The notes beneath the pieces are model-generated. The model searched no databases, was not told where the DNA came from, and was given only the letters and a program-made list of their open reading frames with translations. The translations under genes were made by a program, and so were the position numbers. From Leptothermofonsia sichuanensis E412 (GTDB lineage: Bacteria > Cyanobacteriota > Cyanobacteriia > Leptolyngbyales > Leptolyngbyaceae), in contig NZ_CP072600.1 of NCBI RefSeq assembly GCF_019891175.1, positions 1,736,001 to 1,800,000 on the forward strand: a stretch of DNA of 64,000 nt, written 5' to 3'. Positions 57,954 through 59,609 of this stretch are shown piece after piece (positions within the stretch are counted from its first letter, which is position 1; the number at the start of each line of letters is the position of its first letter).

Positions 57954-58421
57954 TTGACTGTGGAATTTAATTCATCGCCCTCAGATCACTTAACAATTCA
58001 ACTGGAATCTGGTGAAGAATGTTCTTCTTCTGATTTGCATCAGTCCACTTTAGAGGTGGGGGCGGGGATCGTGATTGAAGAACTGGAACTTCCAGCATCA
58101 CCAACGATTGATTCCCCATCAGCTAGCTTGCAACCTTGTATCGGTGAGGGTTGGAAGGTCTTTGCAACAACTTTTGTGACGATTTTGCTGGCAGAACTGG
58201 GAGATAAAACCCAGGTGGCGACTTTACTGATGAGTGCTGAATTTCATGCTCCCGGAATCGTGTTTGCGGGGGCAGCGGCGGCTCTGATTGCAACCAGTCT
58301 GCTGGGTGTGCTGGTTGGTCGCTGGCTGGCCTGCTTCCTCTCCCCCAGAACTCTGGATATTGCGGCAGGCATCCTGCTGGCGCTGATTTCAGGCTGGCTT
58401 TTGTGGGATGTCCTGATTTAG
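57954..58421 (+). CDS. Gdt1/UPF0016 half-transporter, first half
   Basis: 155 residues from a TTG (GGGGA eight to nine bases ahead). ~65-residue soluble N-terminus, then three membrane spans with the family motif LAELGDKTQVATLLMSAE at the first span. Gdt1/TMEM165 proteins have two such motifs; here each half is a separate gene, like hemi-manganese exchangers described in cyanobacteria. Probably pairs with the next ORF to export or supply Mn2+ (or Ca2+). Confidence 0.85.
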   Translation: MTVEFNSSPSDHLTIQLESGEECSSSDLHQSTLEVGAGIVIEELELPASPTIDSPSASLQPCIGEGWKVFATTFVTILLAELGDKTQVATLLMSAEFHAPGIVFAGAAAALIATSLLGVLVGRWLACFLSPRTLDIAAGILLALISGWLLWDVLI

Positions 58422-58461
58422 CCCTTCACCTTTGACCCATTTTTCCTCGTTTCCCCACTTT

Positions 58462-58755
58462 ATGGACTGGCATCTTCTGGGACTGACCTTTATTACGGTC
58501 TTTATCTCTGAGCTGGGAGATAAAAGTCAACTGGCCGCGATCGCCCTGAGTGGTAACACGCGATCGCCCCGGATGGTTTTTTTAGGCACGGTAACAGCCT
58601 TGTTGCTGACCAGTCTTTTAGGGGTTCTCCTGGGTGAGGGTACGGCTCACATACTCCCCACACGAGTCGTTAAGGTTGTGGCGGCCATTGGATTTGCCAT
58701 CATGGCTGTCAGGCTACTATTACCCCACCCTGAAGTCAGGGAAGATACCCGCTAG
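58462..58755 (+). CDS. Gdt1/UPF0016 half-transporter, second half
   Basis: 97 residues from the ATG at 58462, 40 bases after the first half. Contains ISELGDKSQLAAIALSGN and two further spans. The TAG stop coincides with the first TAG of a family-D element (58753), so the native C-terminus may have been replaced. Heterodimer with the upstream protein is the expected working form. Confidence 0.85.
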   Translation: MDWHLLGLTFITVFISELGDKSQLAAIALSGNTRSPRMVFLGTVTALLLTSLLGVLLGEGTAHILPTRVVKVVAAIGFAIMAVRLLLPHPEVREDTR

Positions 58756-58849
58756 TAGTTTGTCAACTTTGTATTTGTGAGTCTGGGATCAGGAAGAGGT
58801 TATTATTTTGGGGTTTTCAACCCACACAATAATCCTTGACAGACGGCCA
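58753..58849 (+). repeat. family-D MITE-like element, copy 2, on a stop codon
   Basis: Starts TAGTAGTTTGTCAACTTTGT on the stop of the preceding gene and ends TTGACAGACGGCCA, with the inner AGTCTGGGATCAGG and GGTTATTATTT blocks. It supplies a stop codon to one gene and its right end lies 7 bases before the start of the next. Confidence 0.85.
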
Positions 58850-58856
58850 GGTTGCC

Positions 58857-59609
58857 ATGAAGATTCTCAACCTGTGGATCAAGCAGCCCGACCATCGAAT
58901 GGTTGCCTGCTCCAGTGTGAACCTGGTGAGCGGTTATGGGATTGAGGGTGATCAGAATGCCCGTGTGGGTAGCCCACGCCAGGTTTTGCTGATTGACCAG
59001 CCATCGTTGCAACTGTTTGGCTTACAGCCTGGTGATCTATCTGAGAATATTCTGGTTGATCAATGTTGCGCAGACTGGACTTCAGGACAAATCCTCAACT
59101 TGGGCAGTGCCTTCATACGACTGACCTTTCTCTGCGAACCCTGTTTTCGCCTGGAATCCATTCATCCAGGGTTAGCCAGACAAATCAAGGGCAGGCGTGG
59201 TTTTTTGGGTATGGTTGTTAAGAGTGGATCTGTGACCGTTGGTGATGGGGTAACGCCCACAGGCTATACCCTTCCTGTCATCGCTGATAACCCGAAGGGT
59301 CGATTTCAGGCACTGGTTGCCAGGATTCCACCTGGAAAGGTGATGACCACTGCCGATCTGGTGCTGGCTTTGGGAGTTTCAGATGCCTACTATCGGGTCA
59401 TCCCAACCTTTATCAAACAGTCTTTAGCCAGGCTCCCAGTGCATCGAATTGTGGCAGCCAATGGCACGTTGTTGCTCCGCCATATGCCTGACCAGGCTGA
59501 ACGACTGATGCGGGAAGGCGTGGACGTGGTACAGGGCAGAGTGGGCGATCGCGATCGCTGGCAACCCGAGCATTTTTACGAGGGGCTACCGCTATCGTTG
59601 CTCAGTTGA
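58857..59609 (+). CDS. fusion of a MOSC domain and an alkyltransferase-like (ATL) domain
   Basis: 250 residues from the ATG at 58857; upstream codons are family-D repeat. Residues 1-140 look like a small MOSC domain (GIEGDQNARVGSPRQVLLID, LGSAFIRLTFLCEPCFRLE, RRGFLGMVVKSGSVTVGD). Residues ~155-245 match the C-terminal DNA-binding part of O6-alkylguanine transferase/ATL: RFQALVARIPPGKVMTTADLVLALG, then LPVHRIVAANG in place of the IPCHRV active site, so the alkyl-accepting Cys is replaced by Val. It would bind alkylated DNA without repairing it. The fusion is unusual; see findings. Confidence 0.7.
   Translation: MKILNLWIKQPDHRMVACSSVNLVSGYGIEGDQNARVGSPRQVLLIDQPSLQLFGLQPGDLSENILVDQCCADWTSGQILNLGSAFIRLTFLCEPCFRLESIHPGLARQIKGRRGFLGMVVKSGSVTVGDGVTPTGYTLPVIADNPKGRFQALVARIPPGKVMTTADLVLALGVSDAYYRVIPTFIKQSLARLPVHRIVAANGTLLLRHMPDQAERLMREGVDVVQGRVGDRDRWQPEHFYEGLPLSLLS

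Follow-up and report, generated by a model that had tools for sequence, protein, structure and literature searches.

A cyanobacterial protein family joining a MOSC domain to an alkyltransferase-like domain: a candidate base-directed molybdoenzyme

In the window, that is, the whole 64-kb stretch of DNA that was analysed, the open reading frames include one encoding a 250-aa protein when read from its ATG (Table 1). An alternative in-frame TTG start at position 58836 would give a protein of 257 aa; the alignment of the relatives begins at about the ATG. When the 250-aa protein was compared with Pfam at E-values up to 10, MOSC (PF03473; E = 7.3e-7, residues 55-133) and DNA_binding_1 (PF01035; E = 2.9e-6, residues 151-222) were the only families matched, the latter with 27.4 bits against a 27-bit cut-off, i.e. 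by a margin of 0.4 bit. No NCBIfam model scored above its cut-off, and NF008577, the model for 6-hydroxyaminopurine reductase (YiiM subfamily), gave 11.1 bits where 294 are required. Against the PDB, a profile of the C-terminal half found the alkyltransferase-like (ATL) protein Atl1 (3gva) at E = 5.7e-11, while a profile of the N-terminal half reached YiiM only at E = 0.33; a single-sequence search with the MOSC half alone returned metallopeptidases only, at E of about 0.08, which we took as chance. Assignment of the N-terminal half to MOSC is therefore based on the Pfam match together with the predicted fold. Elsewhere in the window, at 57954-58755, lie two adjoining short ORFs with ELGDKTQ/ELGDKSQ motifs, which by eye look like a split transporter pair of the GDT1/TMEM165 type.

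Table 1. Positions in the window of the MOSC-ATL fusion gene and of the domains and residues of its product
Feature	Position	Strand	Basis
MOSC-ATL fusion gene, 250 aa	58857..59609	+	ORF, Pfam; 1 of 28 distinct fusions
MOSC domain, residues 1-138	58857..59270	+	Pfam PF03473; fold matches to YuaD 1oru, YiiM 5yhh, mARC1 7p41
CEPC motif, C93-C96	59133..59144	+	both Cys in 28/28; C96 presumed Mo-ligand cysteine
Interdomain segment, G129-P158	59241..59330	+	exactly 30 residues in 28/28 fusions
ATL/MGMT C-terminal-fold domain, residues 145-237	59289..59567	+	PF01035; Atl1 3gx4, 3gva
Thr165 at base-flipping Tyr position (Atl1 Y25)	59349..59351	+	alignment of 28 fusions
Arg180 at arginine-finger position (Atl1 R39)	59394..59396	+	28/28 fusions
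PVHR, residues 194-197, Val195 replacing alkyl-acceptor Cys	59436..59447	+	alignment of 28 fusions

An AlphaFold2 model of the fusion, made with 14 sequences, had a mean pLDDT of 93.2 and a pTM of 0.86, the final ten residues averaging 68. In structural alignments with VIA-align, residues 1-138 of the model matched YuaD (1oru) with a Z-score of 18.4 (1.9 Å over 137 aligned residues), and the MOSC half matched YiiM with Z = 14.6-16.6 (5yhh, 16.6) and mARC1 with Z = 13.4-15.2 (7p41, 15.2). Residues 145-237 matched DNA-bound Atl1 (3gx4) with Z = 13.4 (1.6 Å over 92 aligned residues), and stretches close to this one matched 2kif with Z = 13.0 and human AGT (1t38) with Z = 10.6. Foldseek run on the model gave the same pair of folds. 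Matches to pyruvate kinase domains at Z of about 9 were regarded as barrel background. The model confidence, the YuaD and Atl1-DNA Z-scores and the domain order common to 28 proteins together argue that neither half is a chance match. A sequence-only reading had proposed an N-terminal MOSC and a C-terminal MGMT/ATL domain in one frame; Pfam, AlphaFold2 and the structural alignments agree on both domains and on their order, and in the predicted model neither half turned out to be another fold. The pTM, which is that of a two-domain chain, suggests that the two domains pack against each other in one body instead of being loosely strung together. The YiiM alignments continue beyond the MOSC half as far as model residues 150-172, where the ATL domain begins, a weak hint that this domain may sit where YiiM carries its helical bundle.

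After removal of duplicates among the loci gathered, 28 distinct full-length fusions with the same domain order were obtained, the window's included; 27 are cyanobacterial, some of them plasmid-borne, and one (L035) comes from a metagenome-assembled genome (MAG) of Latescibacteria. Among 58 genomes of relatives 13 gave a match (11 full-length fusions and two matching the MOSC half only), and 11 of 42 genomes of the same order did so. In the phylum sample, where at most seven first-look candidates were scored per genome, 10 of 386 genomes matched, with at least nine fusions, a lower bound, and one MOSC-only protein. A scan of genome contigs with the single protein as query yielded no relative; with an alignment as query it yielded 23, namely 13 fusions (12 cyanobacterial, one from the Latescibacteria MAG) and 10 MOSC-only proteins. 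Twenty plasmid records were matched, nine of them over at least 80% of the query: Gloeothece PCC 7822, two of Trichormus variabilis, Aulosira, Calothrix and four of Nostoc. Five of these nine proteins are annotated as 'MGMT family protein' and four as hypothetical, and both domains were present at all six of the nine loci that were read. Plasmid A of Trichormus (Anabaena) variabilis ATCC 29413 encodes a fusion (WP_011316352.1) that retains the base-flipping Tyr discussed below. A search of phage sequences found no relative of the fusion, and none of the five pattern matches in viral contigs was a relative.

As far as our literature searches reach, the MOSC-ATL architecture is undescribed, as the sequence-only reading had supposed: no paper on it was found, and InterPro architecture pages may list it without study. 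The partners of MOSC domains covered in the available text of a review are the 3-alpha domain, MOSC_N, ferredoxin, flavin domains, NifS, MoaB and XdhC (PMC10637980), and the fusions mentioned for AGT/ATL proteins in the available text of another are those with EndoV and with histone-like proteins (PMC10779285). Like the AGT-EndoV and ATL-EndoV fusions (PMC10779285), the protein described here joins an AGT/ATL domain to a second enzymatic domain, but their partner is a nuclease whereas ours is a molybdoenzyme domain.

Thirteen residues are invariant in all 28 fusions: R41, Q42, E63, N64, C93, C96, R114, G115, G160, R180, P194, H196 and R197. In the alignment, C96 falls on the PC cysteine of YiiM-type MOSC proteins, and the fusion thus shares with YiiM and YuaD (5yhi, 5yhh, 1oru) both the MOSC fold and the single invariant MOSC cysteine. 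The modelled Moco site of YiiM is lined by its invariant Cys together with R55 and N87 (PMC5818509, available text), and from our reading of the motifs R41 and N64 of the fusion may correspond to R55 and N87. What had been noted as a CxxC-like EPCFRLE region is part of C93-E-P-C96, with both cysteines kept in 28 of 28; C93 aligns with Arg117 of YiiM. The CxPC motif also occurs in single-domain MOSC proteins from Acidobacteria (L036, which appears to be MOSC-only and is perhaps frameshifted), from the window's phylum (L058) and from an archaeon (L040), and it is not special to the fusion. Unlike the fusion, none of these three was found to have an ATL domain.

In the C-terminal half, the PCHR active-site motif of AGT/Ogt proteins reads PVHR in the window's protein, as had been pointed out. 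The alkyl-acceptor position is occupied across the 28 fusions by Val (14), Ile (9), Leu (2), Thr, Arg and Ser (one each), never by Cys or Trp, whereas P, H and R of PxHR and the arginine finger R180 are kept in all. Thus the domain resembles ATLs (S. pombe Atl1 3gva/3gx4, V. parahaemolyticus 2kif) in fold (Z = 12.1-13.4), in lacking the acceptor Cys and in keeping the arginine finger and PxHR. It differs from them in lying behind a MOSC domain, in having mostly Val, Ile or Leu where ATLs usually have Trp, in a Pro183 following the arginine finger (27 of 28) and, in the window's clade, in the loss of the base-flipping Tyr, a residue whose conservation across AGTs and ATLs is described in a review (PMC10779285, available text). 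At that position the fusions have Tyr in 11 cases, Thr in 15, and Met and Ser in one each, the Tyr being lost in 17 of 28. The sequence-only reading was right about the Cys-to-Val change; the absence of the flipping Tyr had been overlooked, and the suggestion that the protein binds O6-alkylguanine and recruits nucleotide excision repair extends to it a property of a family of which it does not retain every feature. The segment from G129 to P158 has the same length in every fusion. Values of dN/dS among the eight closest fusion pairs were 0.12-0.32 (Nei-Gojobori), and the fusion is under purifying selection. The net charge of the ATL half gave no useful separation of the fusion clades.

A tree of the C-terminal domains was computed from 53 rows (28 fusions, eight ATLs and 17 Ogts). 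The 25 stand-alone rows, all from genomes of the window's phylum, are the fetched PF01035 proteins that matched the C-domain profile at 1e-3, a part of the PF01035 matches; Ogt-type loci below this threshold (L067, L069, L075, L077, L078) were left out. All fusion domains cluster in a single clade (100/100), which falls with the ATLs and apart from the Ogts (100/100), at the end of a very long branch (2.89 changes per column); Latescibacteria are represented by one row, from one MAG. All 17 Tyr-less fusions, including the window's, group together (99/96), with the Tyr-bearing L052 as their sister on a long branch (96/85); the remaining Tyr-bearing fusions were not shown as one clade in the 53-row tree. 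The simplest history compatible with these groupings would be one fusion event, in which an ATL-type domain was joined to a small MOSC protein, the Tyr being kept at first and then lost once in the line leading to the window's clade.

In the window's genome (one contig, 6.43 Mb), PF01035 matches three proteins, namely the fusion, an Ogt of canonical type (PCHR) and an ATL of canonical type with the Tyr present (TTYG...PWHR). As the host thus has a normal Ogt and a normal ATL as well, classical O6-alkylguanine sensing by the window's protein is less likely. One other, separate MOSC protein is encoded, YcbX-like by eye. MoaC, a protein of Moco biosynthesis, was found in 18 of 18 fusion genomes, which indicates that Moco is available to the hosts, but also in 11 of 14 control genomes, so that its presence is consistent with a Moco enzyme without being discriminating. 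A match in the ATL band occurred in none of six genomes with Tyr-retaining fusions, in 12 of 12 clade-A fusion genomes (four of the 12 proteins were read as PWHR sequences) and in four of four non-fusion genomes, Ogt, ATL and fusion being separated in these counts by PF01035 score and frame length and eight ATLs being read as sequences. The idea that a Tyr-retaining fusion stands in for a stand-alone ATL was rejected as lineage background, because non-fusion genomes also have the ATL band and because, in one family in which Tyr-retaining fusions occur (118 genomes), the band was present in 3 of 16 fusion-like genomes (three of the 16 being confirmed as fusions) versus 26 of 102 others. No gene family was common to more than three of 14 fusion loci, some of which lie on short contigs. 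The surroundings of the six plasmid loci read differ too, with no constant redox neighbour or operon.

We propose, at a probability of roughly 40%, that the fusion is a two-module molybdoenzyme, i.e. a Moco-dependent N-reductase with an ATL-derived module for handling nucleobases; that the fusion binds Moco, that it carries out N-reduction and that its substrate is a base are inferred. The MOSC domain would bind Moco via Cys96 and reduce an N-hydroxylated (N-oxygenated) group. The ATL-derived domain would replace the accessory module that lies beside the Moco cavity of other MOSC enzymes (MOSC_N, or the helical bundle of YiiM) and would recognise a nucleobase, which could be part of DNA, of a short single strand or of a nucleotide. 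A link to N-hydroxyl chemistry is plausible, since according to the available text of PMC10637980 every MOSC protein assayed in vitro to date can reduce N-oxygenated substrates. The same source lists 6-HAP, N4-hydroxycytosine and their nucleosides among the substrates of mARC, describes a role of MOSC enzymes in protecting cells against N-hydroxylated bases and nucleosides, and places the Moco of mARC1 in a crevice between MOSC and a second module, with an unusually solvent-exposed Mo (PMC10637980). The fusion shares with mARC and YcbX the pairing of MOSC with a further module, which would here, too, lie at the Moco crevice; unlike theirs, which is MOSC_N (with ferredoxin in addition in YcbX), its second module is the ATL domain. 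Similarly, no C-terminal helical bundle (3-alpha domain) as in YiiM was recognised, the ATL domain being found in its stead. A base-directed N-reductase is preferred because the usual second modules are unrecognised and an ATL-derived domain lies at a fixed distance. The invariant R41, Q42, E63, N64, C93, C96, R114 and R180, the spacing, the pTM of 0.86, the MOSC fold Z-scores and MoaC were also counted in its favour. Counted against it were a MOSC half without an electron-transfer domain, the lack of a constant redox neighbour at the loci read, the loss of the flipping Tyr in 17 of 28 fusions and a pocket residue that is mostly Val, Ile or Leu and never the Trp usual in ATLs. We know of no precedent for ATL-assisted reduction.

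The main rival, which we consider somewhat unlikely, is that after fusion the ATL fold came to serve as a structural lid, providing a second wall for the Moco cavity and no longer contacting DNA, in which case the protein would be a small-molecule N-reductase or Moco handler. The fixed interdomain spacing, the varied residues in place of the acceptor Cys, the loss of the Tyr in one clade of 17 and the separate Ogt and ATL of the host would all agree with such a lid, but the retention of the arginine finger and PxHR in 28 of 28 fusions and of the Tyr in 11 speaks against it. The invariant arginine finger, together with a tree position among the ATLs and away from Ogt (100/100), could instead suggest a sensor of the ATL type that marks DNA damage and passes lesions on to nucleotide excision repair, MOSC serving as a redox or structural accessory, and the ATL-EndoV fusions provide a precedent for joining ATL to other enzyme domains (PMC10779285). 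This lesion sensor is an unlikely explanation, however, given the 17 fusions without Tyr, the lack of Trp and an ATL-band protein already present in all 12 clade-A fusion genomes, four of these proteins having been read as PWHR. Very unlikely, finally, is a Moco- or sulphur-responsive DNA-binding regulator or Moco chaperone, in which MOSC would bind the cofactor and the helix-turn-helix (HTH)-containing ATL fold DNA or a partner: other rare MOSC fusions (MoaB, XdhC) do point to Moco biosynthesis (PMC10637980) and the AGT/ATL fold does contain an HTH (PMC10779285), but the 14 loci and six plasmid loci offer no constant neighbour or operon as a target, and the HTH contacts of AGT are described as non-sequence-specific (PMC10779285).

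For the base-directed N-reductase, the distribution of the Tyr may bear on how the base is presented. Judging from this residue, base flipping from DNA is plausible in the Tyr-retaining fusions and has probably been changed or lost in the window's Tyr-less clade, for which a free or single-stranded nucleobase would be the likelier substrate. A further possibility, quite unlikely in our estimate, is reductive direct-reversal DNA repair, in which the ATL-derived domain would flip an N-hydroxylated base (e.g. N6-hydroxyadenine or N4-hydroxycytosine) and the Moco of the MOSC domain would reduce it in place, restoring the normal base. Such a reaction would be likeliest for the Tyr-retaining fusions, several of which are on Nostocales plasmids, the window's clade being a derived form with another presentation of the base; if it occurs, the fusion would to our knowledge be the first molybdoenzyme known to act on DNA. 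The combination of MOSC with a lesion-recognition fold at fixed spacing makes reduction of N-hydroxylated bases within DNA testable in named strains, and, as one clade has lost the Tyr, nature provides two versions to compare, possibly a DNA-flipping and a non-flipping one. The fusion may represent an as yet unstudied enzyme for the chemical reduction of damaged bases.

At three of the 14 loci (L023, L028 and L033), the next gene upstream of the fusion, on the same strand, is caspase-like, judged by eye from the first residues of its product. At two of the 14 (L029, 3444-4548, and L031, 1107-2143), two genes common to both loci lie upstream on the opposite strand, one of them peroxiredoxin-like by eye. 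Two genomes (G460 and G469) apparently have two fusion-like copies each, as judged from PF01035 score and frame length, and in another (G511:C2:776-1000) a fusion-like frame is interrupted by one TAG. On the Gloeothece verrucosa PCC 7822 plasmid (L119, 4912-7702), parA and parB precede the fusion gene at short distances, all three on one strand, and about 4.5 kb beyond it the cas genes of a type I-MYXAN system begin.
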